From IMG/VR virus record IMGVR_UViG_3300009181_006602, positions 1 to 64,000 of that record: a DNA stretch of 64,000 nt, one strand, 5' to 3'. A program made the translations under genes and the position numbers. The notes under the pieces were generated by a model. It did no database searches. It was not told where the DNA came from and was given only the letters and a program-made list of their open reading frames with translations. Shown in pieces: positions 7,429-62,955 of the stretch. Positions within the stretch are counted from its first letter, which is position 1. Each line of letters begins with the position of its first letter. Origin of the DNA: a virus.

Positions 7429-7668
7429 TCAAAGACTGCGAAGAATCCTGGTTCGCGTCTCAATGACTTTCTTAAGTCGACTGCGTATACGGGTTTCTTC
7501 AATCTTAAGAGCCTTAATAAAATCGATTTTTTTCTCAAGAGCTTTATCAGAACCTTGTTCATCAGCATCAACTTCTTCAGCCTCGACGTCAGAAACAACG
7601 CCAGCATCTTTAAAATTAGCTAATTCTTCTGCAATAATTTTTTTAAGTAATCGACTTGTAAGTTTCAT
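7429..7668 (-). CDS. Small leader-bearing protein, possible capsid cargo
   Basis: A 79-residue helical protein starting MKLTSRLLKKIIAEEL. The same pattern, a short beta-prone start followed by L-(K/R)-(K/R)-I-I-x-E-E, begins the proteins at 13341-13694 and 21610-22011 and, with an extension, 19547-20530. In T4 a short N-terminal tag ending in I-A-E directs internal proteins into the prohead. This leader could do the same, although here the residue after IAE is Glu and no L-x-E-G site follows. An acidic middle (VEAEEVDADEQ) leads to a basic, Arg-rich C-terminus that could touch nucleic acid. Function unknown. Confidence 0.55.
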   Translation of the reverse strand: MKLTSRLLKKIIAEELANFKDAGVVSDVEAEEVDADEQGSDKALEKKIDFIKALKIEETRIRSRLKKVIETRTRILRSL

Positions 7669-7732
7669 GTATTAATTCTCCGTGTAACACTTTAAATATC
7701 TTAGATAAAATAAAAATAATAGATTTAAAGCA

Positions 7733-8158
7733 CTATTTGTTAGATAATCTTGGAAATGCCAAATTTGCCCATTTTGAAGCTGCTTCTTCTCCGAATAATT
7801 CTTGCGGATCGTGAGAAGCTACGATGCTTTCAATCTTACCTGTCGCTTTTGGCGTTTTCATCCTATCATTCTCCAACATAGATGGCAAGGTTTTTTCTGC
7901 AGTGTCGGCTAAAATAGATGCCATGATGTCGTTTCCACCTGATTCAAGTCGAATTACTTCTTTTAATGTTGATGATTGCGCTTTTAAACGGGTCGCATTT
8001 TGTTGTATTGCAAGCGAATTTGAAGTAGTGGTATCTCGATAAACTTTCTTTTTTACTTCATTGATAGATTCACTTGTGCTAGAACCCATGCCTTCAGAAA
8101 GTATTTCTATGAGGCACTCTTTAACGATAGACTTTAGCTGCCCTTTTGTGATACCCAT
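7733..8158 (-). CDS. Leader-bearing head-module protein, possible capsid cargo
   Basis: A 141-residue protein beginning MGITKGQLKSIVKECLIEIL, a variant of the leader shared by several proteins here, followed by L20-S21-E22-G23, a textbook T4 prohead-protease cleavage sequence (L-x-E before G). The rest is helical with a C-terminal DPQELFGEEAASKWANLAF segment. It lies 159 bases upstream of the leader protein at 7429 and 1 base from the next gene, inside the protease-capsid block. Best guess: an internal or core-associated head protein processed by the gp21-like protease. No enzyme motif seen. Confidence 0.55.
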   Translation of the reverse strand: MGITKGQLKSIVKECLIEILSEGMGSSTSESINEVKKKVYRDTTTSNSLAIQQNATRLKAQSSTLKEVIRLESGGNDIMASILADTAEKTLPSMLENDRMKTPKATGKIESIVASHDPQELFGEEAASKWANLAFPRLSNK

Positions 8159-8159
8159 A

Positions 8160-8576
8160 TCAACCTACACCTTCCCAATATGTTGTACCACCGATTGATC
8201 CAGTTAATATAGGCATCATCGTAGAATCAATCATAGTAAGGTTTGCACAGATGCTAGTAGAGATATCTGTAGCGCCATCTCTTAAAAGATAAAGTTCTTT
8301 GACCCTAACGCCTAGAGTAATATTACTTCCACCGTTTACAATAATATAATTGGCTTCGGTTCCTGCTCGGCCGCTGATTCCATTTTCCGTGAATCCAACT
8401 CGTAAACGTTGAGTGGCCGCTGTGTTGTTGTTGATGATTAAAATGTCTTTTGTTACTTTTGGAAAAATATACCTAATAGCGGTACTGGATACTGTGCCTG
8501 ATAGTACCCATGGTAAACCGGACATCGTAAACTCAGCCGTTGTATTCAACCCTGATTTTGGATTATTTAATCCCAT
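8160..8576 (-). CDS. Putative structural protein of the head module
   Basis: A 138-residue protein with beta-rich sequence, no Lys/Glu-rich helices and a compact Ig- or jelly-roll-like composition (many Thr, Ile, Gly, Val). It starts MGLNNPKSGLNTTAEF and is packed between neighbours (1-base gap downstream, 2-base gap to the protease gene). Position and composition suggest a decoration or vertex protein. It is not similar enough to Hoc, Soc or gp24 to name. Confidence 0.5.
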   Translation of the reverse strand: MGLNNPKSGLNTTAEFTMSGLPWVLSGTVSSTAIRYIFPKVTKDILIINNNTAATQRLRVGFTENGISGRAGTEANYIIVNGGSNITLGVRVKELYLLRDGATDISTSICANLTMIDSTMMPILTGSIGGTTYWEGVG

Positions 8577-8578
8577 GA

Positions 8579-9190
8579 TTATTTGTCTCCATAAGAAATA
8601 ATATCGTTTAATATCCTATCGATTCTATCTGATTTATTAAAAACCTTTTGAAACTCCGTAGAAGTAATCCTACGCCCTTCGGGTAGCATAAAAGCACCTG
8701 GAGTTGATGGTTCTGATACGTAATCCCAACAAATAAGTTGAAAATCATCTTGAACAATATGATAATCGCCTTGTTTTTTTGTTGAGCCGACGCCTCGAGA
8801 TGATATACCAAGTTTTACACCTGAACTTACAAGAGATTGTAAAATCTTTCCTGCAGGTGTATCTAGGACTTCAATAGTCCCATAGACTACGTCCTTATCA
8901 AGATATGCTTCTCGTATAATGTGCGAAACATTCTTAAGGTTAACTACGGAGGAATCAGGATGATCTAGTTCGCCAAGCGCCCTATTCTCAATAATGAATT
9001 TTTGATAATTTCTAACTTCGCGATCAAGAACGTTTATTGGATAAATTCTACCATTTTGATTAAGCGTATCTGCTTTCTGTAGGATACCCTTCATCATCAC
9101 TTTTCCATCGTTCTTTTCTCGAGATTCTTTAATCATCTCAGGTGTATAATCAAAAACCTCGTACGAACTTAAAAGGCGTAAGTCTTTCAT
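8579..9190 (-). CDS. 21: Prohead core protease (T4 gp21-like)
   Basis: A serine protease of the T4 gp21 (S77) type that matures the prohead by cutting capsid, scaffold and internal proteins after L/I-x-E. The ATG at 9190 is chosen over the in-frame TTG at 9193; it overlaps the upstream stop as TGATG. The 203-residue product has the GELDHP motif with catalytic His77, the GISSRGVGS motif with the nucleophile Ser130 or Ser131, and an Asp-containing DDFQLICWDYVSEPS segment. NGRIYP near residue 48 is also typical. Its location upstream of scaffold and capsid genes is canonical. Confidence 0.92.
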   Translation of the reverse strand: MKDLRLLSSYEVFDYTPEMIKESREKNDGKVMMKGILQKADTLNQNGRIYPINVLDREVRNYQKFIIENRALGELDHPDSSVVNLKNVSHIIREAYLDKDVVYGTIEVLDTPAGKILQSLVSSGVKLGISSRGVGSTKKQGDYHIVQDDFQLICWDYVSEPSTPGAFMLPEGRRITSTEFQKVFNKSDRIDRILNDIISYGDK

Positions 9191-10056
9191 CAATCTTCTC
9201 CTTCATCAGTTGTTAACTCGTGACACAGCGTAGAATATAACATAAATCTAGACACAATAAAGTCATCGACATTTTCGAGTGACTCAGCAATTACCTTCGT
9301 CCTAACATCTCTTAGCTTATTTACAAGAAGCGTATCTTCTTTTTTCTGTTCGACATATTGATCTATAGATTCGAGTAAATCAATTCTAGTTTCTTTTAGT
9401 CTTTTCTTAATGTTCGATTGACTTTCATCAGTCGAAGAGAAAGCATATGCTTTAATAATTTCTCGTTGCTCATTATTAAGAGTAACAGAGTATTTTTCAT
9501 TCATTTTTTTCATCATCATCTTCATGACAAGACGAGTTGTGCCAGGAGTTTCATCAATAAGGACGTGATCTTCTTTTTTCTTTTCAACAAGTAACCATTC
9601 TCTTAATTGATTTTCGTAATTCGCTAAGGAAGTAATGTCAGCCGCCCCCGCGGGTTTTCTCCACTCATTTAAAAGAGTTTGAATCGTAGCATAAAGTCGA
9701 TACTCCGCAATCGGTTGATCATAAAAATGATCGTCCTTTAACATGTGATTTATATTACGAATTAATAATGATTTTTCGCGGGACAATTCATCTACGTCGG
9801 TACTGTTGGCCGCAGCACGTGCCTCAGATAAAATTGATGTAACAATCGAGTCTGAACTAATCGTGGTTTTTACAAGGGCATTAAAAAGTCTAAACTCTTT
9901 GTAAAGATGAGTACCTGGTTTATAGTGCTTACGAAGAATTCGTAAAGCAGTTGACGACCTTTTCTTATCACCTTCAACTAAGGCGCTAGAAATTGTTCTC
10001 ACCAAAAACTCGTATAATAGAGCAGTGTTACGTTTTTTATTGTGCGCTTTTGACAT
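9190..10056 (-). CDS. Conserved-looking unknown between portal and protease
   Basis: The start is set at the ATG at 10056 (MSKAHNKKRNT), preceded by GAAGGGT, rather than the TTG five codons earlier. The 288-residue product is almost wholly helical and charged with no Cys-rich or nucleotide-binding motif. The basic N-terminus (AHNKKRNTALLYEFLVR) and dense helices suggest a protein- or nucleic-acid-binding scaffold component. It fills the slot between gp20 and gp21, where T4 has the small core proteins gp67 and gp68, but it is much larger and not visibly related. Probably a prohead core or portal-associated protein; function unproven. Confidence 0.5.
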   Translation of the reverse strand: MSKAHNKKRNTALLYEFLVRTISSALVEGDKKRSSTALRILRKHYKPGTHLYKEFRLFNALVKTTISSDSIVTSILSEARAAANSTDVDELSREKSLLIRNINHMLKDDHFYDQPIAEYRLYATIQTLLNEWRKPAGAADITSLANYENQLREWLLVEKKKEDHVLIDETPGTTRLVMKMMMKKMNEKYSVTLNNEQREIIKAYAFSSTDESQSNIKKRLKETRIDLLESIDQYVEQKKEDTLLVNKLRDVRTKVIAESLENVDDFIVSRFMLYSTLCHELTTDEGED

Positions 10057-10067
10057 ACGTTGACCCT

Positions 10068-13000
10068 TCAATCTTCGTCTATAATAAATAAGTCGTTTTC
10101 ATTAGTCTGAGGCGAAAGTTTTTCATTTTCTGATAGAATACTTGAATTTTTGTGTTGTGTCATTTGCAGCGTCTTTGACATGTTTTGAAGAGTAGATTGT
10201 AACGTCATCGGTAGATTAGGTCTAACATAAGTATCATTACGCGATCTCGATTCATTTTTAAACGGGTTATTAACTGCGCTCTTAACATAATCCATGCCAA
10301 ATACATCTTTCATTCCCATACCATCGCCATCAAAGTCTGTCATTTTTTTAAAATCCGGCATATGATTTTGGTGCGTCTTTCTTCGACTACGATCATACAA
10401 TGCTTTCTTTAATTGCGATTTTGCCTTTACTGGCAATTTATCTTTTTCGAAAAGTGGCGGCATTAAGTCAAAGTCAAAATCGTCTTCACCAGACATTAAA
10501 AGTTCCGTTTCAGGTTCCTTCTTTTCTACATCATCGCCGGCGAAAAGATCTTCGGCGCCCTCTTCTCCACCAGCCTCATCGCCACCAGCTTCTTCTTCTC
10601 CACCAGCCTCATCGCCACCAGCTTCTTCTTCTCCACCAGCCTCATCTCCACCAGCTTCTTCTTCTCCGCCAGCTTCTTCTGGTTCCTCTTCGATTTTAGC
10701 TTCTTCAATAGCTTGATCAACTAATTTTTCTTCATATCGTTGTTCGTCAATTTCTTCTATTTGCTCGTCGGTTAAACCCCAAATCATTTTACGAGCGAAT
10801 CGTTTACTACCCATTCCTTCTGGGATAGTACCTGCAATCTCAAACTTAGATCGCCAAATTTCTAACTTTTGTTGTTGCGCTACCGTAGATGGATTTGAAA
10901 GATGAAGATTGAAGTTTTGTAATTCCTCAGAATCAAAGCCGTGAGCATATAAATGAATTATCGCAAGCTTATTTAATTCAGACAAAAGAACTTTTTGAAT
11001 TACGTTAATTGTACGAGAAAATCTTATGTCTTCTTGTGCAAGTGTAGCTTTAGAAGAAAGCATTTCATCATATCCAAGATATGCTCGCGGGATTTTTAGC
11101 GCTGCAAATAGCTTCTTTTGAATGTAGGCTACATCTTCGACCGCCGCGGCATTTTGACCACCTGCCAGCGTATCGATTCTTGTTCCTGATTCGCCGCCAC
11201 GGACAGGAATAAAATAATCATCTTCGATAGAAAGCGGGGCATAACGAAGGTCTAAACGTCCTGTAGCTCTATCGACGACTTGATTAGTACGAAGATTTTT
11301 ACGTTGTTCTTCGACATACATAGGTACATTTTCAGGAGGAATATTTGCGACGTCGATATAAAAAACTCGGCGTTCCGGCGCTCTAACAACGCGATAAACC
11401 AACATCGCATCTTCAATGAGAATTAATTGACGCCAAATACGGCGGCCTGCTTCAATAACTGATGAACCATAAGGAAGAAACATATCATTGCCAAGAAGAC
11501 GAAAATGAGTAACCTCCCAATTTTCCAATACTCTATTTCCTAAAGTGACCCAACGATAGCGAACAGCAAAAGGATCATTCGGATCGTAGTTTTCTTCACG
11601 TTCAATCTCATTTACGGGTATTGGAAATGCGTTAATAACGCCATATTGCGGCGAAACGTCATTATAAAGAAAAAAGTCGCCGTATTTAACAAGATTGCGA
11701 GCCCAGCAACGAAGATTAAACTCTACGTTAAGAGTATTATAGAAGAGATCCTCTAAAATGCTTTTAATTTTTTCATTATCGGAATAGATGTGAAGAACCC
11801 GACCCTTATCATCCTGCGCAACAGTTTCATCTGCGTAGATATCCATTGCAGCCGCAATTTCGGGTGTATTGTGAGAAATGACGGTATCTGTCGCAAAGTT
11901 TTTGTACCCATCTACGGTCAAGTCGTAGAGAGGAATCACTCCGTGGTATTCGACAGAGACAACCTTGAGGTTGTCATAGGTTTGAGAAAACTCTGTATAG
12001 TTCTTGTATCCTCGCTTCTTTAAACGATTATCAAGCACGGTAGCTGTAGTGTCTAAAGAAACTGCAAGCTGCTTCTTCGACATGCCTCTAGAAAAAGTAG
12101 AACATATTCTATCGAAGGTAACTGAATGGTTATATCGAGGATTATTCTTGTCCTGGTTGTCCCATCCTGCATTGTGCCAATCTGGGTTGTACGCCTTTGC
12201 GAATGTTTGGAAGTCTTGATATCCATGCTTTCGTAGTTTACGTTTGATCACATTCGAATCGGTATCAAGAACTTCGCACATTTTTCGAGAATTGAAGTTT
12301 GTTCTTTCAGCAATTTCTAGAATTCGACCGAAAGTGATGTCCTTCCGTTCGGCAGGATTGTTCTCAGACATAAACTTAGAATGATTGGTCTTGAACCTCT
12401 CGATCCATTCTGCATTTTGATCAGACCACTTTGCCCCGTTGATGATCTTCGTGTGAAGGCTTCTGTGATCGTGGTCCTTCATAATGCGTAAGTTTTCTGG
12501 TTTGTTATCATGCTTCGTAAAATTAACGTGATGCACAACCTCATCGACGGCGAGCTCGGAGCCTTTCATCATCTCACCGATGATCCTGTGTTCAGCGACC
12601 CAACCGTTCATATTTGAGCGTCGGTCCATCGTGTATATCCAGCGATAGCCCTCTCCCTCTTCTTTGCAGCCGTTGAATAAGTCTCTACGGTAGAAAGGCA
12701 TCATTGCGTCGCCGGACTTTAGGTCTTCTATCTTGCAGAAAGTACCATCGCGCTTCATGAGGCGGTGATTTGGTGTTCCAGTGATCTGTTGTCCATTATC
12801 AAAAGTAACCGTGTAAGCATGGTCGACTCGAGTCTGTCGAGCTTGCTTTCCCATCGCTGGAACGATCCTACCTAGATTGTGATCGTATGCATAGATTACG
12901 AATGTTCTGTTCGAATCCACCTTGCACTCCAAAGAAAGCTCTTCAATAGTCTTGTATCCACCTGGCACCGCGATCTTTGTGTCCTTATGCAGGCAATATT

Positions 13001-13238
13001 CCATTTCTTGAAAATCTTGATATCTCATCAAACGTTCTGAAAGGTTATACGCGCTGGATGTAATCGTTGCGTATGTTGGAGCTAGCGATTTTTGAAAAAG
13101 TAAAGCACCAGACGATTTCGTCTTATCGACTACCGCAATTGTAGTATCAAGATTTCTTATCTTTCTCTTAACAACAGGACCACTCTTAAAGAGTTTAGAA
13201 AGACGTTGAAATAATGTTTGATCTTTTTCTTTTACCAT
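10068..13238 (-). CDS. 20: Portal protein (T4 gp20-like) interrupted by an intein
   Basis: The precursor has 1056 residues; splicing would join residues 1-81 to 458-1056, giving a 680-residue portal. The extein joint reads DFQEMEY then TPEIAAAMDIYADE, matching the conserved gp20 region where the chain enters the portal core. Later blocks typical of gp20 include the WRQLILIEDAMLVYRVVRAP and YLGYDEMLSSKATLAQEDIRF segments. The portal dodecamer is the DNA entry channel and terminase docking site. The C-terminal part carries an acidic tandem repeat (A-G-G-D/E-E-A, encoded at about 10561-10680) absent from T4 gp20, plus a long tail. It overlaps no neighbour; an unknown gene starts 12 bases downstream of its stop. 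Confidence 0.92.
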   Translation of the reverse strand: MVKEKDQTLFQRLSKLFKSGPVVKRKIRNLDTTIAVVDKTKSSGALLFQKSLAPTYATITSSAYNLSERLMRYQDFQEMEYCLHKDTKIAVPGGYKTIEELSLECKVDSNRTFVIYAYDHNLGRIVPAMGKQARQTRVDHAYTVTFDNGQQITGTPNHRLMKRDGTFCKIEDLKSGDAMMPFYRRDLFNGCKEEGEGYRWIYTMDRRSNMNGWVAEHRIIGEMMKGSELAVDEVVHHVNFTKHDNKPENLRIMKDHDHRSLHTKIINGAKWSDQNAEWIERFKTNHSKFMSENNPAERKDITFGRILEIAERTNFNSRKMCEVLDTDSNVIKRKLRKHGYQDFQTFAKAYNPDWHNAGWDNQDKNNPRYNHSVTFDRICSTFSRGMSKKQLAVSLDTTATVLDNRLKKRGYKNYTEFSQTYDNLKVVSVEYHGVIPLYDLTVDGYKNFATDTVISHNTPEIAAAMDIYADETVAQDDKGRVLHIYSDNEKIKSILEDLFYNTLNVEFNLRCWARNLVKYGDFFLYNDVSPQYGVINAFPIPVNEIEREENYDPNDPFAVRYRWVTLGNRVLENWEVTHFRLLGNDMFLPYGSSVIEAGRRIWRQLILIEDAMLVYRVVRAPERRVFYIDVANIPPENVPMYVEEQRKNLRTNQVVDRATGRLDLRYAPLSIEDDYFIPVRGGESGTRIDTLAGGQNAAAVEDVAYIQKKLFAALKIPRAYLGYDEMLSSKATLAQEDIRFSRTINVIQKVLLSELNKLAIIHLYAHGFDSEELQNFNLHLSNPSTVAQQQKLEIWRSKFEIAGTIPEGMGSKRFARKMIWGLTDEQIEEIDEQRYEEKLVDQAIEEAKIEEEPEEAGGEEEAGGDEAGGEEEAGGDEAGGEEEAGGDEAGGEEGAEDLFAGDDVEKKEPETELLMSGEDDFDFDLMPPLFEKDKLPVKAKSQLKKALYDRSRRKTHQNHMPDFKKMTDFDGDGMGMKDVFGMDYVKSAVNNPFKNESRSRNDTYVRPNLPMTLQSTLQNMSKTLQMTQHKNSSILSENEKLSPQTNENDLFIIDED
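10561..10680 (-). repeat. 33-bp tandem repeat coding an acidic portal tail
   Basis: About three and a half copies of a 33-bp unit encode the 11-residue pattern AGGDEAGGEEE within the portal gene. Copies are nearly identical, with a few single-base changes (for example cgcc to tctcc), which suggests recent expansion by slippage. The encoded segment should be disordered and negatively charged. Confidence 0.85.
11868..12995 (-). mobile_element. Intein with HNH homing endonuclease in the portal gene
   Basis: The element spans residues 82-457 of the precursor (376 residues). Block A starts at Cys82 (CLHKDTKIAVPGGYKTIEEL). Block B is GTPNHRLM with its Thr and His. The C-terminal blocks F and G are YDLTVDGYKNFAT and VISHN, with His456-Asn457 and Thr458 as the first extein residue. 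These are the residues needed for self-splicing. Between them lies an HNH nuclease (AEHRIIGEMM ... VVHHVNFTKHDNKPENLRIM), then two related helical DNA-binding modules, each ending in a KRKLRKHGY/DNRLKKRGY sequence. The element looks complete and active and is more GC-rich than much of the extein. Confidence 0.95.
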
Positions 13239-13340
13239 TGTTAGTTGTGTCGTTCCAATCGTGGAAACGACTCTTTCGTAATTAGAACTAGATAATAACT
13301 TTTAAAAAGCCATAGTATACTTCTTTGTTTCTTTCTCGCG

Positions 13341-13694
13341 TCAGATGTTAGGTTTTATAGACACTTTTTTAGCAGACGGTGATTGCGATGCGGCGGGACT
13401 AGACGGAACTACATCGGGTTGTTTAGGACCATCAACATGCGTCATAGGAGAAGCAACAACTCTTTTTAACATTTTTTCAGTTTCTAAAAGATGTTTTTCT
13501 AGTGTTATGTTGGCCGCATCTGCGCTCGATAGAGCTTTCGAAGATGCTGACGACTTAAATAGCTCAATTGCTTTAAGAAGTTTACTAGCATTTTGTGCCA
13601 TTGCCGCGGCTTGATCTTCTTTTTCACCTTCTTTTAAAAGTGAAACTTCTTCTGCAATAATTTTTTTCAAGCGGGAAATTGTAAGCTTGTGCAT
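13341..13694 (-). CDS. Leader-bearing small protein, possible capsid cargo
   Basis: The ATG at 13694 (MHKLTISRLKKIIAEEV) is preferred over the upstream codon because TGAGGATT precedes it. The 117-residue protein begins with the shared leader and continues SLLKEG, where L20-K21-E22-G23 fits the prohead-protease consensus at exactly the same residue as in the protein at 7733-8158. Mature sequence would be helical and Ala/Ser/Lys-rich with a Pro/Ser-rich end (SPAASQSPSAKKVSIKPNI). It lies between terminase and portal genes. I infer an internal head protein; enzyme function is not evident. Confidence 0.55.
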   Translation of the reverse strand: MHKLTISRLKKIIAEEVSLLKEGEKEDQAAAMAQNASKLLKAIELFKSSASSKALSSADAANITLEKHLLETEKMLKRVVASPMTHVDGPKQPDVVPSSPAASQSPSAKKVSIKPNI

Positions 13695-13741
13695 ATTAAT
13701 CCTCAATGTCAATTAATAGATATTAGTTCAAAAATTTTTAA

Positions 13742-15355
13742 TTAGCGATAAAGCCAAGAAAAATCAGAAACGTCAACATGACGAACCATAGAAGGGTCTT
13801 TTGGTTTTAATGGATCACGAAAAGTTGAATTTAAGCCTCTAATGCTCGGATTAACTAATGGTTGCGCAGAATTTATATTACCTGGCATATTGGTATTGCG
13901 TTCTACTTTCGTAGCCTTTAACATAGCCATTGATAACGCCGTTGCGTGTTCATTAACGTTTGAATCTCCGGCTACCAGCCACGTCGCAATAGCTAAACTT
14001 ATTATTAAGTCATCATGAGCATCTTTAGATGCCATTGCCTTAGACCCATTCCAAATAAATGCTTGAAGTTGATCGTAAAGTCTTTGAGAATAAACCTTAA
14101 GAATAGAATTGCGCGCAAGTTCTTCTAGTTTCGCCAATATTTGAGATCTTGTTTTTGTTTGTGTAGAAAAACCAGGAACTGCATTAGGATCCGTTGGTTT
14201 AAAATTGAATAGGTCACCTGATGAACCTTGATAATACAAATGAGGATAACCGTCATCTCGAAGTTTAACACATGTAAAATAACCAAACGTATTTTGTTCG
14301 GGACAAATTAATGCTTCATTATACATTTTGCCATATTCAAACAACAAGTCTGCTAATTTGTCAGGAGGAATTTTACCCATGTACTCAGCAACGACCTCGC
14401 AAGACGAGTCATCGACTATGTGAAATGTTGAAAAGTCTTTGGCATCGCCTCTTGAGATATCAGCTGCTAGAACATATTTCTTACCAGGCTCTGGTTTTCG
14501 CCAAATCCATACAGCAGATTGTGGGCCTGTTTTTTCTATAGGCGGGCGGATGGCTTCTCTAATAGACTCGAGTTCGCTCGGTTGTAAAAATGTATCTCCT
14601 GAGGATATAAAGTCGCACAAAAACTCCTGAGCGACTTTTCTCCTTGGAAGGTTTTTTGTTTCTCTAGCGAACCATTCTTCATCATGTTCAGGATGAACCC
14701 ACCACGACAATTTTATAGTATTAAACTCATTTTGTTTTGTTTCTGCGTCCATCCAAAGTCGATAATACTGACCGCCAACGCCATTTGGTGTAGAGATAAT
14801 AATGGCATTACCGCCCGTGGATAGAGTAGGATAAAGTCCTGTCCAAATATCTTCAAAGTCTCTAATGAAAGCTGCCTCGTCGACGATAAGGAGCGAAAGC
14901 GCTTCGGAGCGTCCGGCATCAGGAGATGTTGGAATAGCGGTGATTTGTGAACCATTATCGAATCTAATTGATTGTTTAGTTGGTTCAAATTTTGTAAGTA
15001 ATAACCACTTAGGCAAACAATCTAACATGATTCTAACTTTTTTAATAAAATTCATCGCAGTCGATAATTTCGTAGCGATGACGAGAACATTTTTATCTTT
15101 TTTAAAGATAGAAAACCACACAGCATATGCAGCAGTGATTGTAGACAAACCTAGCTGGCGGGATTTAAGCGCTATGTTAAAACGATTATTCTGAAATTGT
15201 TTAATACAATCTTCCTGAAAATCGTACGTCGCAAAAGGTATAAGCCCTCGCACCGTATGTTGAATTTTTACATAGCGATTCATAAAGTAAACCGGATCCT
15301 TACCACATCGTAAGATCTCGTTTACTTGGTCACTTCTAGTTAGCGTTTGTTGCAT
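13742..15355 (-). CDS. 17: Terminase large subunit (T4 gp17-like)
   Basis: A 537-residue packaging motor. The N-terminal ATPase shows the Walker A-like SRQLGLST (65-72), Walker B LLIVDE (155-160, catalytic Glu160) and the coupling motif ISTPNG (about 187-192). The C-terminal RNase H-like nuclease shows Asp299 in AADISRGD, Glu353 in CPEQNTFGY and the Asp pair in SKDAHDDL (448-449). Size is a little below T4 gp17 (610); the N-terminal region before the ATPase is short. Start and upstream stop overlap as TAATG, so it is translationally coupled to the small gene before it. No small terminase subunit was recognised in the window. Confidence 0.95.
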   Translation of the reverse strand: MQQTLTRSDQVNEILRCGKDPVYFMNRYVKIQHTVRGLIPFATYDFQEDCIKQFQNNRFNIALKSRQLGLSTITAAYAVWFSIFKKDKNVLVIATKLSTAMNFIKKVRIMLDCLPKWLLLTKFEPTKQSIRFDNGSQITAIPTSPDAGRSEALSLLIVDEAAFIRDFEDIWTGLYPTLSTGGNAIIISTPNGVGGQYYRLWMDAETKQNEFNTIKLSWWVHPEHDEEWFARETKNLPRRKVAQEFLCDFISSGDTFLQPSELESIREAIRPPIEKTGPQSAVWIWRKPEPGKKYVLAADISRGDAKDFSTFHIVDDSSCEVVAEYMGKIPPDKLADLLFEYGKMYNEALICPEQNTFGYFTCVKLRDDGYPHLYYQGSSGDLFNFKPTDPNAVPGFSTQTKTRSQILAKLEELARNSILKVYSQRLYDQLQAFIWNGSKAMASKDAHDDLIISLAIATWLVAGDSNVNEHATALSMAMLKATKVERNTNMPGNINSAQPLVNPSIRGLNSTFRDPLKPKDPSMVRHVDVSDFSWLYR

Positions 15356-15732
15356 TAGACTAATTCAAACGTTGTTTTCCTACGGAAATATGCTGTTCTT
15401 TTTGGATTATGTACATTAAACCCGATGATTTCAACAGACGTATTTGTAGAACGCTCCTTTATAGGGAGCGTCTCGCCTGTTATGTTTTTATAGACTGTCT
15501 TAACGTTTTTCACAACAGCGTTAACGATATCGATGGATTCCTTTTCATATGTCATATTCATTATGCTCATATCTTTTTCTGAAACGAAATTAACGATAGC
15601 TTGATATGAAGCTAATAAAACGTCACCTGCTAGTGTGAATTTAACTGAATAAGACGATGTCTTAGACGTTGACGACCTTCCCCACGTCGTATCTATAGCT
15701 TGTCCAAGTGCATTATAATCGATTTTAGGCAT
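15355..15732 (-). CDS. Unknown protein coupled to terminase
   Basis: A 125-residue protein starting MPKIDYNALGQAIDTTW with a good ribosome-binding site (GGTGGAG). Mixed alpha/beta composition; C-terminal half is basic (NPKRTAYFRRKTTFELV). Its stop overlaps the terminase start, so the two are translated together. That position might suit a small terminase or neck protein, but it lacks a clear helix-turn-helix and coiled coil, so I make no assignment. Confidence 0.5.
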   Translation of the reverse strand: MPKIDYNALGQAIDTTWGRSSTSKTSSYSVKFTLAGDVLLASYQAIVNFVSEKDMSIMNMTYEKESIDIVNAVVKNVKTVYKNITGETLPIKERSTNTSVEIIGFNVHNPKRTAYFRRKTTFELV

Positions 15733-15760
15733 AGTATCTCCACCCTTAAATATACAACAT

Positions 15761-16078
15761 TCACTCTAAGACAATATTTGAATCGACAAAACTTCTTCTT
15801 GCTATCACATTTTTTACAATATCTGTTGCAGGTCGCCAACCCATTTCCCATTTTTCCTTATTTGAATAAGCCCAAGTGTCTGCACAAGGCGAGCAACAAC
15901 CAAACTTTTTATAAGTAAACTCGTCTTCTTTGTGACCAAAACGAATGTCACAAACATCACAAAATAATGGCATATTTCTTCTTTCATTTTCATCATAAGA
16001 AGAAGGAACTATCACTACATAATTTTCTCTATAACAAATTTTTCTATCACGAGGATAAGGTTGCCATGTGTGTTTCAT
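15761..16078 (-). CDS. Small zinc-binding protein
   Basis: A 105-residue protein with two Cys pairs, CDVC (about residue 40) and CCSPC (about 61-65), spaced as in a treble-clef or zinc-ribbon fold, surrounded by aromatic residues. Its ATG overlaps the stop of the gp46-like gene (ATGA), so it is coupled to the recombination genes. No catalytic motif; a DNA- or protein-binding adaptor is plausible. Confidence 0.5.
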   Translation of the reverse strand: MKHTWQPYPRDRKICYRENYVVIVPSSYDENERRNMPLFCDVCDIRFGHKEDEFTYKKFGCCSPCADTWAYSNKEKWEMGWRPATDIVKNVIARRSFVDSNIVLE

Positions 16079-18663
16079 AGATCTACCCCAAAAACAATTT
16101 TTGAATCTTTTTCGCTTTTCGTAATTTCTAAAATATGATCAACAACATCCTTGACACCATCTATATGAGTGATTATTAAAATTGTCTTAAAATATTTCTT
16201 AAAAGAAACCAATAATCTATTACATGCTTCAATAGCAGCATCGTCTAGTGTGCCAAATCCTTCGTCGATCACGAAGATATTGGGCTTAGACAAAGAAGAG
16301 ATGTTAATCATCGCAACTCGAAGAGCCAATGATGCAATTGTCTTTTCCATGCCTGAACATAACTCTATGACTCGGCGGCTATCTCCATAGTTGATATAAA
16401 TCTCTGAAGAATCCGTATTCTCGTCATTCTCCAGCTCGATAGTAAAATCTACGATGCCATGAAGAATTTTGGCTATTTCAATGTTAATAACGGGTAGTTG
16501 CGACTTAGTGATGATTAGTGGCAAACCTTTTTTGGAAAATGCAGTAGTAACCAATTCGCGGACCTTCATTTTCTCTAATAGATTATCTCTTGCAACTTTT
16601 TCTTCATTTATTTTTTCAAGATTAGCAAAGAGCTTTCCTTTACGCGTGGCGCTATCAAATTTATCAGTTGTAAGCGCATCTATAATGTTAGAAATATCTT
16701 CTATATTTGACTTAATAGAAACTGCATCTGCATTATCGTTATTTTTTAAAGCCTTCTCAAACGTCGTTAGCTTTTCTCTTGACGCTTTTAACTCTACTTC
16801 TTGAGAATGATAAATAGCTTTAAACTTTTCAAGTTCAATTTCTTTCTTCGAGATATCTAAAAGCAATTTAGTTTCTAAAGACAATAACTTCTCTATTTTT
16901 TCCAAACGATTGACTAAATTTTCTTTTCCAAGCTTTTCAAAAGACTTTTTTACTTTTTCTAGTTTCTTTTGTGATTGTTCTACTTCGCGTTGTTGGTCAA
17001 CGAGCTTTGACTTATTGATGTGGGCGTCTTTGATAAATTTGCAGGTTGGATAATTATCTTCACAAGGTACCTCATCAAGAATTTTAAGAGATTTTTTTTG
17101 TTGTTCAAAAAGTGTATTTTCTTTCTCAAAAATAAACTTTAAAGATGTCAATGAAGTTTCAAGATCTTTAAGCGATGCTAGCTGAAGTCGTAATTGCGAT
17201 ATATCATTTTCTGACTTAATGGTTTCTATCGTTTTTAGTTTTTCGCTATTGTTATTTATTTCTGATTCTAAATTTGAGATGCTATCAAGGCAAGTTTTAC
17301 ATCGATTTTCAAGGACAACTAGTTGCTTAGCAAAAGACTCAACCTGGGATTTAGTAACTGGTATACCTTTGTGTTTAGATAGCTCAATCTGTAATTGAGA
17401 AAGAACTTGTTGTTTATCTTTTATTAGTTGGTGGCTGTCACTAATTTTTGTATCGACATCAACAATGTCATTTTCGTATTGTCTTATTAACGCGATCCAG
17501 TCTCTATCAGGATAATTTTTTAATTGTGACTTGTAGTTTGTAAGTTCTTTATTTGACAATTCATACATTTTGTCAAATATGTCAAGATCAAGAAATCTGG
17601 ACAATACTGCCCGGCGTTTCATAGAACCTTGTTCTATGAATTGATTCATTTCTCCTTGCGCCGCCAAAGACGTTGTCATAAAATCTTCTTGATTTCCAAT
17701 TAGCGTTCTAATAATCTTTTCCGTCTCTGCGCGTTGTTCACCTGCCAAATCTTCCGCTTCGCCATTTTCTTTGATCCTAAAAACATTTAAGGCAGTAGAT
17801 GCGCTTAATACGCCTTTTTTACTTTCGCTCTTAACAGTTTGACGCTCAATAACATAATCGGTGCCATCATGATTGATAATAGCCTTTGACGAACAATAAG
17901 GCTTGCGAATATTACAAACATGAATATTTTTTATTGAGCCTCGGTCAGTTGTATTAAACAAGGAATACATCAATGCGCCAACGATAGACGACTTACCGAC
18001 CCGATTAGGACCAAACACCCCGACAATACCATTTAGCTTATCGAAATTGATCATATTTCCTTCGCCATAGGCAAACATATTGTCAAACGATAAATATCTA
18101 AGTGACCATTTAGAATTATGCGGAAGCTCTTCAGTTAAAATCACAGTAGAAAGACAAGACTTCACTTGTTCAAAAACGATTTTCCATTGCTCAACGGTTA
18201 TTTGAGTTCCAGAATAATAGTCATTGATTAACTTAAAAAGAACATCGGCATTCCTTAGATCGGCTTTTTCTAGCGTTGTTGTATTAGTTTTTATTATTGA
18301 TTTATCAATAACAAAATCAGATTTAAACGTTACCTCAGTGGCTAATTTTGTATTCTTTAATGATTCGCTAATTAAGCTAAAATCTTTTTGTCCTAAGATA
18401 TCGAAAGATCTAATTCGAAATCTAGTACCATCAGGATGTTTCGAAGCAGACGAAATTAAGTCTTCGATTGAACCGCGCCACGGAATCGTTACATACGGTT
18501 TGGGATTAGGCAACTTTTTAAAAGTAACATCCCATGCTAGCGAACTACTAATATCCCACAACAAATAACCATGATCTAAATCCTCTGCGTAATTTTGTTG
18601 TATAGGAGTTCCGCAAAAGCCTATCCACGGCTTTTTTACCTTTATTTTTATTTTTTTTCCCAT
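16075..18663 (-). CDS. 46: gp47 C-terminal domain fused to gp46 (SbcC/Rad50-like)
   Basis: Residues about 185-862 are a complete gp46/SbcC ATPase: Walker A GPNRVGKSS (218-226), long coiled coil with a hook-like CEDNYPTC, ABC signature CSGMEKTIASLAL, Walker B IFVIDEGFGTLD and the H-loop THIDG. Residues about 10-184 do not belong to gp46. KPWIGFCGTPIQQNYAEDLD and the following GYLLWDI correspond to the segment after the last phosphoesterase motif of gp47/SbcD (usually YPGSxxQ-N-GE), then its capping and partner-binding part. So the C-terminal part of gp47 is joined in frame to gp46. The gp47 catalytic part is the next gene upstream, separated by one in-frame TAA plus 24 bases. The protein would act with it to resect DNA ends for recombination-dependent replication. 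Confidence 0.85.
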   Translation of the reverse strand: MGKKIKIKVKKPWIGFCGTPIQQNYAEDLDHGYLLWDISSSLAWDVTFKKLPNPKPYVTIPWRGSIEDLISSASKHPDGTRFRIRSFDILGQKDFSLISESLKNTKLATEVTFKSDFVIDKSIIKTNTTTLEKADLRNADVLFKLINDYYSGTQITVEQWKIVFEQVKSCLSTVILTEELPHNSKWSLRYLSFDNMFAYGEGNMINFDKLNGIVGVFGPNRVGKSSIVGALMYSLFNTTDRGSIKNIHVCNIRKPYCSSKAIINHDGTDYVIERQTVKSESKKGVLSASTALNVFRIKENGEAEDLAGEQRAETEKIIRTLIGNQEDFMTTSLAAQGEMNQFIEQGSMKRRAVLSRFLDLDIFDKMYELSNKELTNYKSQLKNYPDRDWIALIRQYENDIVDVDTKISDSHQLIKDKQQVLSQLQIELSKHKGIPVTKSQVESFAKQLVVLENRCKTCLDSISNLESEINNNSEKLKTIETIKSENDISQLRLQLASLKDLETSLTSLKFIFEKENTLFEQQKKSLKILDEVPCEDNYPTCKFIKDAHINKSKLVDQQREVEQSQKKLEKVKKSFEKLGKENLVNRLEKIEKLLSLETKLLLDISKKEIELEKFKAIYHSQEVELKASREKLTTFEKALKNNDNADAVSIKSNIEDISNIIDALTTDKFDSATRKGKLFANLEKINEEKVARDNLLEKMKVRELVTTAFSKKGLPLIITKSQLPVINIEIAKILHGIVDFTIELENDENTDSSEIYINYGDSRRVIELCSGMEKTIASLALRVAMINISSLSKPNIFVIDEGFGTLDDAAIEACNRLLVSFKKYFKTILIITHIDGVKDVVDHILEITKSEKDSKIVFGVDL

Positions 18664-18687
18664 AATACTTCTGTGAAGAATATTAAA

Positions 18688-19335
18688 TTAACCTACGATA
18701 ACGCAATCAGGATATTTAGACAAATCTGCTTCGTCTATTTCTATCTCTACATCTCGATATCCAAGATATTGCATCTTGTGTATATCGCCAAGAAACACAT
18801 AAGAGTAATCCTTAAAAAAGTCGATAGTAATTTTGGTTTCGTCCAATTCCCAGCCTGATTCTGTTACGCAACCTTGAACAGGACCATGATAACATGCAAT
18901 ATTGACCTTGCCTGGTTCTGGTTTGACATTGTTCCATCCTTCTTCGTCGAAAAGAGAATAAACACACCAATTAAAACCAGGGTGAAACTCATACACTCCG
19001 CTCTTCTTGTAAAGATGAATACGCGGATTGTTCATTGCAACTACGATTGGAGATACAGCATCTTGGCGAGAAAGATTAACTAAATTCCCGTCATGATTAC
19101 CAAGCGTTAAGTGTACTGGTGCTACTTCCGCCATGGCATTTAACCACCATGTTAGAAAATCAATATATTCAGGAGAAATACCTGAGGTTTTTGTATGAAA
19201 AATATCGCCGCCAACAAAAATGTGATCAACTTTATTTTTCTTACAGTCATCAATAAATGCAGAAAATATATCGCGATATTCAGCATGTCGAGAGAGCGAC
19301 CGAATATGGATATCCGAAGTGTGAGCTATTCTCAT
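18688..19335 (-). CDS. 47: gp47-like nuclease (SbcD/Mre11), catalytic part only
   Basis: A 215-residue calcineurin-type phosphoesterase with all five metal-binding motifs: SDIHI (8-12), GGDIFH (about 42-47), GNHDGN (about 79-84), CYHGPV (about 148-153) and LGDIHK (about 181-186). It ends with YPDCVIVG and TAA, about 125 residues shorter than T4 gp47. The missing capping region is present in the same frame 27 bases downstream, at the start of the gp46-like product. Thus the nuclease could work as two chains, or be restored by stop readthrough. It is read with gp46 as one transcript. A 211-bp gap with no visible gene lies upstream (19336-19546). Confidence 0.88.
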   Translation of the reverse strand: MRIAHTSDIHIRSLSRHAEYRDIFSAFIDDCKKNKVDHIFVGGDIFHTKTSGISPEYIDFLTWWLNAMAEVAPVHLTLGNHDGNLVNLSRQDAVSPIVVAMNNPRIHLYKKSGVYEFHPGFNWCVYSLFDEEGWNNVKPEPGKVNIACYHGPVQGCVTESGWELDETKITIDFFKDYSYVFLGDIHKMQYLGYRDVEIEIDEADLSKYPDCVIVG

Positions 19336-19546
19336 AAGTTATCTTTTTCGAAAATGCGATTTAATAATATCGCGCAACTAAAATAATTTTTGCAACTTTT
19401 ATATTGCGATACCTTCGTATATCAATATCGTTTTAATAAGCAACATAGACGAATTAATAGTTAACATAACAATACGCTTATTTTACGTAGATGTTCAATT
19501 ACTGTTTAAAATCGTAGTCTTACGACATGACTATTCGTTATAAAAA

Positions 19547-20530
19547 CTAAAGATTGCTGGCAGCGACGGCGCTAGCTCCGGCTTTAACTATATTCGCAAC
19601 TTCCTTTGCGCCTATAGCTAATTCGACGCCCTTAACAGCAGTAGCGCCACCTTCGATAAAACCTAAAAGCGAAGCTCCTGCTTTAAGTACACCGACTAAA
19701 CCATTCACTGCGAAATAGATTAATAATACCTTATAGACAAGCCCATCTGTTTTTTTTCTTGCGCCTGATTTGTCTGAATCATCTTTATATTGTTCGTACG
19801 TTATAATTTTTTTGTTTTTGGTTACATGATAACCTTTATTATTTAAAAACTTATATATTTGATAAGATAATGCATCTGGTATGATGTAGTCAATTACTTT
19901 TTCTTCTATCGCATGAGTAACATGCTCTGCTTTTTTAAATAGCGCAGCAGCTTTTGGTGCATTAAGAAAATTTGCTAATTTAAAAAGTCCTTTAAATAAT
20001 AAAGGTAAGCCTCCAACAATAGCTAGCCCAAAACCCGCTATCATTTCAACGCCTGTTTCTCTTAAGATTTTTTGATGATTGATGTATTCATTTGTAGTAA
20101 GAATTGAATATGCTTCGCCGAGAGCGGCGCCAGTTTGAAGCTTTTTTGCCTTATCTTTTACAGGACCTTCTAGATCGCTTTGAACAACATCCAATGCTGA
20201 CTCTTTGCTTAATTCTTTCGCCATTTTTAAAATATCGTTAAGAACGATAGAATCACCAGACGCTGCCATTCCTTGTTTAATAGCAGACATCACTAAATCT
20301 AATTCTTCTGGTTTATTAGTCAATGCTTCTATTTTTTCACTAATTGTATTAGCCCATTCACTAGCAGCAGACTTAAATTTTTCGCTAACATAATTTGATA
20401 ATTTTTTTACGCCGTCTTTAACATCGTCCCATAGCCCTTCTTCGATAAGATATTTTCTTTGTAGTTCTTCTTGAATTATCTTTCGGATGCGCGCTTCAGA
20501 TATCACGTTTGCGTAAATAACATTTTTCAT
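19547..20530 (-). CDS. Hydrophobic leader-bearing protein, possible ejected internal protein
   Basis: A 327-residue protein starting MKNVIYANVISEARIRKII. I10-S11-E12-A13 fits the T4 prohead-protease site and echoes the MKTYQEFIAEA tag of T4 internal proteins. The shared leader core (IRKIIQEEL) and a second site (IEE-G at 31-32) follow. The middle is helical (about 40-150), then come hydrophobic helices: about 165-195 (GVEMIAGFGLAIVGGLPLLF) and about 270-327, with Gly/Ala-rich stretches. The mix of a processing tag and membrane-active helices suits a protein packaged in the head and inserted into the host envelope on infection. That role is inference; no homologue is recognised. Confidence 0.55.
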   Translation of the reverse strand: MKNVIYANVISEARIRKIIQEELQRKYLIEEGLWDDVKDGVKKLSNYVSEKFKSAASEWANTISEKIEALTNKPEELDLVMSAIKQGMAASGDSIVLNDILKMAKELSKESALDVVQSDLEGPVKDKAKKLQTGAALGEAYSILTTNEYINHQKILRETGVEMIAGFGLAIVGGLPLLFKGLFKLANFLNAPKAAALFKKAEHVTHAIEEKVIDYIIPDALSYQIYKFLNNKGYHVTKNKKIITYEQYKDDSDKSGARKKTDGLVYKVLLIYFAVNGLVGVLKAGASLLGFIEGGATAVKGVELAIGAKEVANIVKAGASAVAASNL

Positions 20531-20542
20531 CGCTATTAAATA

Positions 20543-21562
20543 TTATATTCTAAAATTAATTTCTGCAGACTTCTTTAGTTTATTATAAAAAGTATCGTTC
20601 CATGTTAACGGTTTAGCTTCTGCTAGCGCGTTTTCAAACTCAGACTTTGACATATTGCCAGGATCTCCCCACGGTCTAACATCAACTACAACAACATCAA
20701 CGTTGTATTCCTGCAATTTCTTAACTATTTTTGGCATCTTTTTATACCACATATCACCATCAAGAGCCAAAGCTATTGGCGTATTATACATCAATATTTT
20801 ATTAAATATTTCATGGCGCTCGTCAAGGTCAGAGCCTAATAACGCAGTTGAATTTTCTGTACATTTAACCAAATCAAATGGGCCTTCACATAAGACTAGC
20901 CTTTTTGTCCAATCCAAATTAATTTCATTAAAGACTATTGGGTTTTTATCAACATCAGGATTATCATACTTGGGTTTTTTATTTTTATCTATCGCTCGAG
21001 CTGCAAAATAATTCAATTCACCAATAGAATCAAAGGATGGCATAAGAATTCTTCTCTTCCACCTTGGTTCATCAGAAACCCCGAACTTAAAATACCAAGC
21101 ATCTCTATCCGTTAACCCTCTAGAATAAATGTATCTCCATGCTGCTTTAACATCAGGATCAGATTCATCGGCTAATGTTAACAATCGAAAATCCTTTGGA
21201 AGCTCTATTTTTTCGACACGATCAACATCAGCTGTTATTAGATTGGTTCCTGTGCCTTGTCCAGTTAATTCCCGATATAAATTAAGGTGTTCCTGCGTTC
21301 CATATTTACGAATTAAAGGAGCGAGGCTACGGGCCTTCCATCCACATGCCCAACAGTGATTTGCGTCATCGGTTGTACGAATGGCTAGTTTTTTCTTGGT
21401 TGGATCTGTCGGGGCACAAATCGGGCATTTAACATCAAAATTAAGCCCATTACCTGAAATTCGACCTCGACCAAAAATCGACTCATAAAATTTCAGCTTA
21501 TCCGTGAGAGAATGAACCACAATATAACAATATAATGCTATATCATGGTTGTTCACAAACAA
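20543..21562 (-). CDS. DNA primase (gp61/DnaG-like)
   Basis: A 339-residue primase that would lay RNA primers for lagging-strand synthesis. A zinc ribbon (CPIC at 46-49, CWAC at 70-73) is followed by a linker and a Toprim domain with LVLCEGPFDLVK and, further on, ALDGDMW. This is the layout of T4 gp61 and T7 gp4 primase domains; no helicase domain follows. The start is uncertain: the frame opens with TTG at 21562 after GAGGTG, with GTG alternatives at 21556 and 21520 and no ATG ahead of the zinc ribbon. A replicative helicase partner is not in the window. Confidence 0.85.
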   Translation of the reverse strand: MFVNNHDIALYCYIVVHSLTDKLKFYESIFGRGRISGNGLNFDVKCPICAPTDPTKKKLAIRTTDDANHCWACGWKARSLAPLIRKYGTQEHLNLYRELTGQGTGTNLITADVDRVEKIELPKDFRLLTLADESDPDVKAAWRYIYSRGLTDRDAWYFKFGVSDEPRWKRRILMPSFDSIGELNYFAARAIDKNKKPKYDNPDVDKNPIVFNEINLDWTKRLVLCEGPFDLVKCTENSTALLGSDLDERHEIFNKILMYNTPIALALDGDMWYKKMPKIVKKLQEYNVDVVVVDVRPWGDPGNMSKSEFENALAEAKPLTWNDTFYNKLKKSAEINFRI

Positions 21563-21609
21563 GAAACACCTCGAAAAGAGGCACCTCTGCTAAACTACGC
21601 TTTACTATT

Positions 21610-22011
21610 TCAAATCTCTTCGACGCAATTGACGAAGCTGTCTTCATCATCGATTGATTGTGCGCCACCCATGAGCTCATTATCGAGCAACGCTGCAAAC
21701 TTCATGAGTGAGGTGTAGGATCCATATCCCAACAGACTATCGTATTCAGCGGAATAACCATCTCCTTCGCCTTGTGGTCCTTCAAAGTTAACAACAATTG
21801 CGTTTTTTCGGGCGACGCCTTTAATCATGGTAACTAACTTTTTTAAAGGCATTTCAAGATTGTCAGCAATCTCAGAAATGTTAGGAATTTCGATTTGCCC
21901 ATCAACTTCCGGCTCTGGCATTGGCATTTTTCTTGCCGGCATTTCTCTTAATGCCGATCGCTTTACTTCTTCCTTGATAATCCTGCGGAGCTGATTGATT
22001 GTAATTTTCAT
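21610..22011 (-). CDS. Leader-bearing small protein, possible capsid cargo
   Basis: A 133-residue protein starting MKITINQLRRIIKEEV, the clearest copy of the shared leader, followed by L21-R22-E23, a possible protease site at the same distance as in the copies at 7733 and 13341 (although Met follows). A Pro/Met-rich linker precedes a folded mixed alpha/beta part from about residue 40. It sits among replication genes, not head genes, so the tag is not just a feature of head-gene neighbours. Function unknown. Confidence 0.55.
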   Translation of the reverse strand: MKITINQLRRIIKEEVKRSALREMPARKMPMPEPEVDGQIEIPNISEIADNLEMPLKKLVTMIKGVARKNAIVVNFEGPQGEGDGYSAEYDSLLGYGSYTSLMKFAALLDNELMGGAQSIDDEDSFVNCVEEI

Positions 22012-48534: not shown

Positions 48535-49268
48535 AGAATCGTTTTGTCTTCGTCGTTCCGTATTACAATGCGGAAGAAGACATATCAAAGACCCTCCACT
48601 CTATAATGGCCCAAAGTTATGATGAGTGGAGGGCTATTGTTATCAACGATATGTCTACCGACAATGGATCTAATCTCACCTCGCGAATAGTCGATGGGTC
48701 CATCCATCGAGACAAATTTACTCTCGTAGACAGGGTAGAGAAGCATGGAGAAGTTCGTAATACTCTTGTATCGTTAGATTCGATAGAAGATGATGAGGTT
48801 GTATGTCGATTGGACGGCGGAGACTGGCTACTGGAAAACGATCTACTATGGGTGCTTAACGAAACGTACAATGATCCATCTCAGGCGGTCGCCTGGACAG
48901 CGCACAGGTGGAGCTATACAACAAGAAATATCTCTGGACCTTTAAATTTACAATCGAGTCAAACTGTCTATCAACACCCGTGGGTTTCAAGTCACCTGAA
49001 GACATTTCGTGCAGGACAACTTCGTAAAGTTCCAAAAGCTAACTTTTTTACAGACTCAGGCGAGTACATAATGATTGCATGCGATCAAGCGATATTCTTA
49101 CCAATGATGCATCTCTCCCATGGAGAAGGAAAAAAGTTGAACTTCGTACCTATTGTCGGATACCATTACAATATCAATCTAGGAAATAAAAATTTATTTA
49201 CTTCGAATAGAGCGATCAATCAAAAGATGTCAGCTGAGACGATCCGCGAAAGAGGATTTTTAGAGTGA
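48531..49268 (+). CDS. Glycosyltransferase family 2
   Basis: A 245-residue GT-A protein. FVVPYYNAEEDISKTLHSI, INDMSTDNGS and VCRLDGGDWL are the N-terminal nucleotide-sugar motifs of family 2 (usually V-S-x-Y-N, DD-x-S-x-D and a D-x-D/D-G-D). It is inverting by family. Acceptor and donor are unknown. Coupled to the genes on both sides through 4-base overlaps; the next gene starts with GTG. Confidence 0.8.
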   Translation: MKNRFVFVVPYYNAEEDISKTLHSIMAQSYDEWRAIVINDMSTDNGSNLTSRIVDGSIHRDKFTLVDRVEKHGEVRNTLVSLDSIEDDEVVCRLDGGDWLLENDLLWVLNETYNDPSQAVAWTAHRWSYTTRNISGPLNLQSSQTVYQHPWVSSHLKTFRAGQLRKVPKANFFTDSGEYIMIACDQAIFLPMMHLSHGEGKKLNFVPIVGYHYNINLGNKNLFTSNRAINQKMSAETIRERGFLE

Positions 49269-50155
49269 AGATATTGTTAGACAACGTTGATATCAATTCT
49301 TCCTCAGGCCCAAACTCTTTTGGTCGATTGTTATCAGAAGAACTCAAAAGAGTTGGTCACCATATTAGCTCGCGATTAATAGATCCAGACGTTCAACTTT
49401 CTTTTATAGTCGCATCTCAAAAAAAAGCTAAACTAGCTTTACGCCTTGATGGAATATACTTTAACTCTCGACAAGATTGGGAATCCATGAATTCGTCTAT
49501 TAAGAATTCGTTTAATCTTGCAGACGTAGTAATATACCAATCTAATTTTAATAAAACATTGACTGAAAAGTTTTTTGGATATGCAAAAAACTCATTCGTA
49601 ATAAATAATGGTACTTGTTTAGAAACTATTCGTAGTATTAATCCATTAGCTCAACAAGAGCTTGACGAGTATTCAGAAGTATGGTCGTGTGCATCCTCTT
49701 GGAGACCTCACAAAAGACTAAAGGAAAATATCGGTTATTTTTTAGAAAAAGCGCCTATTGATTCTTGTCTTATTGTTGCCGGTGAAAATCCAGATCACGT
49801 CATTAAGCACCCTAGGATATTTTATGTAGGACAACTTTCTTGGAGAGATTGCATATCTCTATATAAAAGATCAACTACTTTTTTACATTTAGCATTTTTA
49901 GATCACTGTCCTAATGTTGTTATCGACGCTGTTGCTTCTGGTTGTAAGTTGATTGTGGCATCTAGCGGAGGAACAAGCGAGATTGCAGGACTTAATGCTT
50001 TGGTCATTAAAGATTTGGATTGGGATATGTCGCCGCTTGACCTTTATTCGCCGCCTGCTTTAGATTACTCTAAAGAAAAGCAAAATTGTGTTATATCAAA
50101 TATTAATATAATCGATGTCGGCACTCGCTATATAAATGCGCTAGGATCAATATGA
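49265..50155 (+). CDS. Glycosyltransferase, GT4-type
   Basis: A 296-residue GT-B transferase with a GTG start overlapping the previous stop. Shown by SGPNSFGRLLSEELKRVGH at the N-terminus (family 4 acceptor-side loop), SWRPHKRLKENIGYF, IFYVGQLSWRD and HCPNVVIDAVASGCKLIVAS, where the E of E-x-x-A-x-G is replaced by D (DAVASG). Shorter than the usual 350-400. Likely adds hexose to a glycan chain. Confidence 0.75.
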   Translation: MKILLDNVDINSSSGPNSFGRLLSEELKRVGHHISSRLIDPDVQLSFIVASQKKAKLALRLDGIYFNSRQDWESMNSSIKNSFNLADVVIYQSNFNKTLTEKFFGYAKNSFVINNGTCLETIRSINPLAQQELDEYSEVWSCASSWRPHKRLKENIGYFLEKAPIDSCLIVAGENPDHVIKHPRIFYVGQLSWRDCISLYKRSTTFLHLAFLDHCPNVVIDAVASGCKLIVASSGGTSEIAGLNALVIKDLDWDMSPLDLYSPPALDYSKEKQNCVISNINIIDVGTRYINALGSI

Positions 50156-50508: not shown

Positions 50509-50509
50509 T

Positions 50510-51502: not shown

Positions 51503-51507
51503 TAATC

Positions 51508-52407: not shown

Positions 52408-52446
52408 AAACGTTGGCGTGTTTCATTGACGAAGTTGGAGTTTAAA

Positions 52447-59231: not shown

Positions 59232-59238
59232 GCGAGAT

Positions 59239-62936: not shown

Positions 62937-62955
62937 TATTAAAAATCGAGGTTTT

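Follow-up and report, generated by a model that had tools for sequence, protein, structure and literature searches.

The internal proteins (IPs) of phage T4 are made with propeptides of 10–19 residues that target them to the core; gp21 removes these propeptides, and many IPs, along with Alt, enter the host (PMC9026906). The CTS of IPI, IPII, IPIII and Alt resembles the leader described here in being a short N-terminal propeptide on unrelated small proteins and in being cut after Glu by an S77 protease; there too, the cargo set varies among related phages (PMC9026906, PMC5694885). Head proteins of SPN3US and phiKZ likewise have N-terminal propeptides removed after Glu by the prohead protease, and the paralogues gp53/gp54 have identical N-termini (PMC5694885). 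These propeptides, however, are mostly much longer than the leader (>100 residues in several SPN3US proteins), the SPN3US cut motif is A-x-E, unlike that of the leader, ejection proteins are not always processed, and a genome-wide common tag is not described in PMC5694885. For phage P1 it was shown that the N-terminal 30 residues of DarB suffice to send a reporter into the head (PMC9024508); a consensus was not found for the Dar proteins, whereas the leader is one consensus on many proteins.

The leader was seen in a window of 64 000 nt, the whole stretch of DNA analysed here (positions 1 to 64 000 of the 90.5-kb IMG/VR record IMGVR_UViG_3300009181_006602). As in T4, a predicted N-terminal propeptide is common to proteins with unrelated mature parts, and an S77 protease is encoded by the same phage. 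The leader differs from the CTS in sequence (I-T-x3-L-[KR]-x-I-I-x-E-E, in a helix of ∼20–23 residues) and in number, with up to 42 carriers per genome compared with about four in T4; the T4-type CTS pattern had no match in 1.84 Mb of leader-phage DNA. The leader peptides were not found in the literature text searched, the coverage of which stops short of figures, most subscription journals and preprints. In our assessment the leader is probably a propeptide that targets proteins to the capsid and is cleaved off, similar to the T4 CTS in its working, of a different and longer sequence, and greatly expanded in a largely uncultured clade.

Leader genes and head genes of the record

Five genes of the minus strand, A to E, carry the leader. 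Gene A (7429–7668, 79 aa; leader MKLTSRLLKKIIAEEL, residues 1–16) encodes a small acidic protein, adjoins the scaffold and protease genes and is gp67-like in size and place; it has no [LIV]-x-E where the remaining four leaders terminate. Gene B (7733–8158, 141 aa) has a leader of residues 1–22 (8093–8158; MGITKGQLKSIVKECLIEILSE followed by G) with a predicted cut at E22/G23 and terminates in a SKWANLAF motif, which also terminates the gp22-like scaffold. In gene C (13341–13694, 117 aa), situated with the portal gene on one side and the terminase gene on the other, the leader is formed by residues 1–22 (13629–13694; MHKLTISRLKKIIAEEVSLLKE followed by G) and the predicted cut is LKE22/G23. Gene D (19547–20530, 327 aa) has a leader of residues 1–31 (20438–20530; MKNVIYANVISEARIRKIIQEELQRKYLIEE followed by G), with a predicted cut at IEE31/G32; its cargo is helical, with hydrophobic segments. 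Gene E (21610–22011, 133 aa) has a leader of residues 1–23 (21943–22011; MKITINQLRRIIKEEVKRSALRE followed by M) with a possible cut at LRE23/M24, thus Met as P1′. Altogether, B, C and D, as well as the clade overall, have a hydrophobic-x-Glu site where the propeptide would end; in E this site is doubtful.

All five genes are true ORFs on the minus strand with the coordinates that the initial annotation had assigned to them, and its reading of the site residues, E22-G23 (B and C), E31-G32 (D) and E23 (E), is correct. When the 90.5-kb record was searched over its full length in six frames with a loose regular expression, exactly five matches were obtained, all at the starts of these genes; the leader HMM also found five copies in the record. 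That the mature parts are unrelated to each other was borne out by pairwise blastp (E ≥ 0.2). Scans of the five proteins against Pfam and PHROGs gave no convincing family, and a tblastn search with gene E against phage isolates gave nothing relevant.

The protease reported among the leader genes as gp21-like is indeed a gp21-type prohead protease (Peptidase_S77; 8579–9193, minus strand) and the predicted processing enzyme. The other head genes, all on the minus strand, code for a major capsid protein of the Gp23 family (2889–4766; propeptide residues 1–60, 4587–4766; predicted cut VLKE60/S61), a gp22-like scaffold identified by position and features (4798–6864), a portal protein of the gp20 family with an intein (10068–13238) and the terminase large subunit (13742–15355). 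With a Gp23 capsid, an S77 protease, Portal_T4 and a T4-type terminase all present, the phage falls into the T4-type (gp23/gp21/gp20/gp17) head lineage. The intein lies between residues ∼80 and ∼457 of the portal gene product and has an HNH domain (Intein_splicing 5e-12, HNH_3). On the plus strand of the window, positions 46582–63711 hold a long run of sugar genes, for glycosyltransferases, an epimerase, an aminotransferase, and NeuB-family and UDP-sugar dehydrogenase-like proteins.

The C-terminal site of the gp22-like scaffold, STVLSE/NVETDRWARLAGLK, was used to calibrate the protease grammar. In relatives, [LIVM]xE[GASN] stands immediately before the RWAxLAG tail of this protein in 23/23 cases. 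T4 gp21 cleaves at the gp23 boundary (PMC5694885), and the corresponding propeptide boundary reads VLKE/[SA] or equivalent in nearly all relatives, with a variable linker after it. Both places have an [LIV]-x-E signature identical to that of the leaders in the same phages. A C-terminal [RK]WAxLA motif is common to the scaffold and family B, in the window and in ORFs of the relatives; of the 57 occurrences of this pattern, 56 lie no more than 25 residues from a C-terminus.

Conservation and distribution of the leader

Using the terminase as query, we recruited 80 related loci. All five families recur in these relatives with the leader retained. The leader HMM matched 33/33 homologues of B and 66/68 homologues of C, with weaker leaders visible in the remaining two; in families A and D the leader was seen by eye in full-length homologues, the D variant being mostly missed by the HMM. 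The copy at 7733 (gene B) had been described as a weaker one; it is no weak one-off, because both its leader and E22-G23 show little or no variation among 26 homologues. Alignment of the leaders across related phages, proposed as a check in the initial annotation, gave E-G at the site in 26/26 aligned B sequences and in 18/18 aligned D sequences. In the latter E31-G32 is invariant at identities as low as 21%, while the residue preceding E varies; in family C, [LIVM]xE[GA] was present in 33/46 sequences.

Beyond the window, hundreds of small IMG/VR proteins begin with the leader, in phages whose capsid is of the gp23 type and which encode a gp21 (S77) protease. A degenerate pattern of the leader DNA occurred in at least 120 stretches in IMG/VR and in only seven stretches of 257 Gb of prokaryotic (bacterial or archaeal) genomes; these seven were in five contigs, all from MAGs, some of which hold many copies. 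The S77 protease was also encoded in two of the three leader-bearing MAGs tested. Among IMG/VR records it was found in 26 of 29 with the leader versus one of 18 random records (drawn with a random 14-mer), a small control; the three leader records without S77 are all fragments of <100 kb. Gp23 was found in all 25 leader records tested, and two genomes (G002 and G009) have two Gp23-family capsid genes side by side.

The leader HMM found 3–42 copies per leader record (42 in G004, 33 in G002, 29 each in G001 and G006) and no copies in 12 random IMG/VR records, one of which has S77 and a conventional Gp23; therefore, the tag is a feature of a subset of gp23 phages. No matches to the HMM were found in T4, P-SSM2, KVP40, HTVC008M, S-SSM7 and RM378, and the matches in Syn9 (E 0.016) and Mel-JY01 (E 0.044) were weak. 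In a tblastn search with consensus leaders against 50 697 phage records, where short queries limit sensitivity, the only match was to LR756508.1, an uncultured 484-kb phage with 21 leader copies by HMM. In the cultured Flavobacterium phage immuto, the closest isolate detected whose protein start resembles the leader, gp080 (L365; NC_055915.1, 113188–113946) begins with MKKSQLRQIIKEALDAS and is the sole match to the leader HMM in this phage (E 1.3e-5).

Position and specificity of the predicted cut

To characterize the end of the leader we used 225 non-redundant carriers picked by the leader pattern alone; their cargo falls into 192 unrelated clusters. The strict pattern fixes index 0–12 from the motif start, and only the later, unconstrained positions were counted as evidence for a site. 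A peak of [LIVM]-x-E was observed at index 18–19, in 108 of the 225 leaders versus 10.4 ± 3.1 in 1000 shuffles. This peak is not built in, since the pattern fixes positions only to index 12. Exactly at index 18–19, [LIVM]xE is absent from about half of the sampled leaders; 158/225 have it somewhere in index 15–24. Information content stays high as far as index 12 and drops to the background level right after the site at index 18–19.

If index 17 is hydrophobic, index 19 is E in 75% of cases, K in 3%, D in 3% and Q in 1%. Such specificity for Glu fits, at the level of sequence, what a protease would need, while a mere amphipathic helix would be expected to tolerate K, D or Q. A preference for G/A/S at P1′ is modest (36% versus 21% at other sites). 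The position of the leader is strict as well: 521 of the 525 HMM matches with at least 22 bits begin within three codons of the start codon. In the AlphaFold2 model of gene B product the leader is a single helix (residues 5–23) that ends at the predicted cut and is followed by disorder. In the model of gene D product a first helix up to residue 30 is followed by another from residue 34, with low confidence in this region; the model (mean pLDDT 61) had no match in PDB and BFVD at E ≤ 0.001.

Proposed packaging, core assembly and other possible destinations

The initial annotation had proposed a reusable packaging tag, processed by gp21, with a modular set of cargo; this is the best-supported reading, which comparative tests failed to break. 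It is favoured because the cut signature is positioned, E-specific, conserved and matches the signature of gp22 and gp23, and because phages with the leader encode S77 and gp23, core enzymes lack the tag and the cargo is swapped. In the mechanism that we propose, a basic amphipathic helix of ∼20 residues (M-K-[IL]-T-x-x-x-L-[KR]-x-I-I-x-E-E...) would dock the carrier on the prohead core; once the shell has closed, the gp21-type S77 protease would cut after [LIV]-x-E, releasing the unrelated mature protein inside the head. The mature proteins of accessory carriers would then probably enter the host together with the ejected DNA, and injection of such cargo is the likely purpose of the tag. Virion location, docking, cleavage and injection of the carriers are predictions made from comparison of sequences.

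The products of genes A and B would probably have another role, that of gp67/gp68-like core components assembling via the same helix. The position of these two genes and the C-terminal motif of B and scaffold suggest that their products may belong to the prohead core and not to the injected cargo. The same observations, the shared motif, the location of A and B in the head module with gp21 on one side and gp22 on the other, and their size, which matches that of T4 gp67/gp68, could be taken to mean that the leader is a scaffold or core assembly helix and nothing else, the carriers being structural core proteins digested in maturation, with nothing useful kept or injected. We consider this unlikely for carriers in general, as most of them are accessory and fast-changing (573 carriers formed 291 cargo clusters) and proteins with folded domains (a kinase, a pentapeptide-repeat protein) are found among them. 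Also, most carriers sit in arrays far from the head module (in G004 the protease is at 82 kb and the carriers are at 184–189 and 273–284 kb), and the free swapping in a non-head slot described below is not expected of core components.

The carriers are short (4% longer than 250 aa versus 25% of neighbours). T4 internal proteins are basic, whereas the cargo here is mostly acidic (17% net positive), behind basic leaders. In 146 tagged representatives Pfam recognized seven families in about five proteins: pentapeptide repeats, AAA_33 kinase, a marginal tRNA-ligase phosphodiesterase, DUF6745 and a ribosome modulation factor-like match were among the cargo identified. In 146 length-matched untagged neighbours it recognized 45 families, including DnaB, DNA polymerase A, RecA, gp32, dUTPase, thymidylate kinase, baseplate and the S77 protease itself. 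An equal occurrence of the leader on non-virion enzymes, regarded at the outset as evidence against a packaging tag, was not seen: core replication or metabolic enzymes account for none of the 146 tagged proteins, as judged by Pfam.

Basic amphipathic helices can bind membranes, and gene D has hydrophobic segments; one may suppose, then, that the leader targets a site other than the capsid, for example a replication compartment or a membrane of the host, and that [LIV]xE only marks the end of the helix. We find this very improbable: the site is E-specific and copies that of gp22 and gp23 in the same phages, and the presence of S77 and gp23 in leader records and the untagged state of core replication enzymes speak against it too.

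Exchange of cargo behind the leader

Gene E occupies a slot flanked by a RuvC-like gene and a primase gene, which is empty in most of the sister phages compared. Tagged and mutually unrelated cargoes were found in this slot in the window, L009, L083 and L084; L008 is nearly the same phage as the window and is counted with it. In a comparison of the window with L009, identity is 93% for the upstream DNA and 94% for the leader; from the junction onward the cargo is unrelated. Such comparisons show cargo genes to be swapped, by their sequences, behind a constant leader, in one case at a sharp junction. In another lineage (L046, L050, L053 and L062) the slot has a different family (GYYDI...) with divergent leader-like N-termini that terminate in LAEG, IIEG or IQES.

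Carriers are often arranged in tandem arrays, and codon identity at common leader residues (0.49–0.69) exceeds the expectation from codon usage (0.37–0.46). One could speculate that all carriers belong to a single gene family that has duplicated many times, with fast-diverging C-termini and an N-terminus conserved by descent only. We find this very improbable, and simple expansion of a gene family was rejected: the junction between a near-identical leader and unrelated cargo is sharp in the window and L008 versus L009, four unrelated tagged cargoes share a single, otherwise mostly empty slot, kinase and pentapeptide-repeat domains cannot have one ancestor, and conservation stops at the cut.

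Within single genomes, 31–51% of identical leader residues are encoded by different codons; therefore, selection acts on the peptide. Although the common stretch is short, chance or similarity at the DNA level (e.g. a translation-enhancing 5′-end) has a negligible probability and was excluded by the shuffling and codon results: residue shuffling of the 63 window proteins gives an expectation of 0.0045 N-terminal leader matches per proteome, residues stay while synonymous codons differ, and the scarcity of the pattern in cellular genomes as opposed to viral contigs also speaks against it.

Candidate injected proteins

Proteins injected by phages are known for few phages, and for uncultured phages they could not be told from sequence. 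With a tag that has a fixed position and a cut site and can be detected by machine, hundreds of small genes without a name become candidates for virion cargo, a list that can be tested and in which the mature ends are predicted. Candidate proteins for host takeover and counter-defence may be sought in this pool, and the loading of protein into heads can be studied with one more natural tag in addition to the T4 CTS and P1 DarB. We see an about even chance that one cleavable tag serves a largely uncultured gp23 clade as a general loading signal for dozens of injected proteins, with some multi-tag polyproteins. If so, the tag would reveal the injected proteome from nothing more than the sequence, and the arsenal would include factors of host takeover and counter-defence, e.g. 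the RNA-repair pair and the pentapeptide-repeat protein described next.

In L131, a tagged gene with a weak match to tRNA-ligase phosphodiesterase (297–794) adjoins a tagged gene with an AAA_33/polynucleotide kinase match (794–1510), which suggests a packaged RNA-repair pair. Enzyme-like carriers of this kind, the polynucleotide kinase-like ATPase and the protein with the weak phosphodiesterase match, could also act inside the producing cell. The tagged pentapeptide-repeat protein of L149 (14–586) matches Qnr/MfpA-type families and is possibly a DNA mimic acting on gyrase. A tagged protein of 356 aa in L104 (2900–3967) has DEDD exonuclease-like motifs recognizable by eye, without Pfam or PDB support. 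PADLOC produced only marginal matches for the cargo. Finally, ORFs in L133, L157, L336, L339, L162 and L166 have internal second copies of the leader; these rare copies, placed between cargo modules, look like tag-cargo-tag-cargo polyproteins, or multi-tag fusions.
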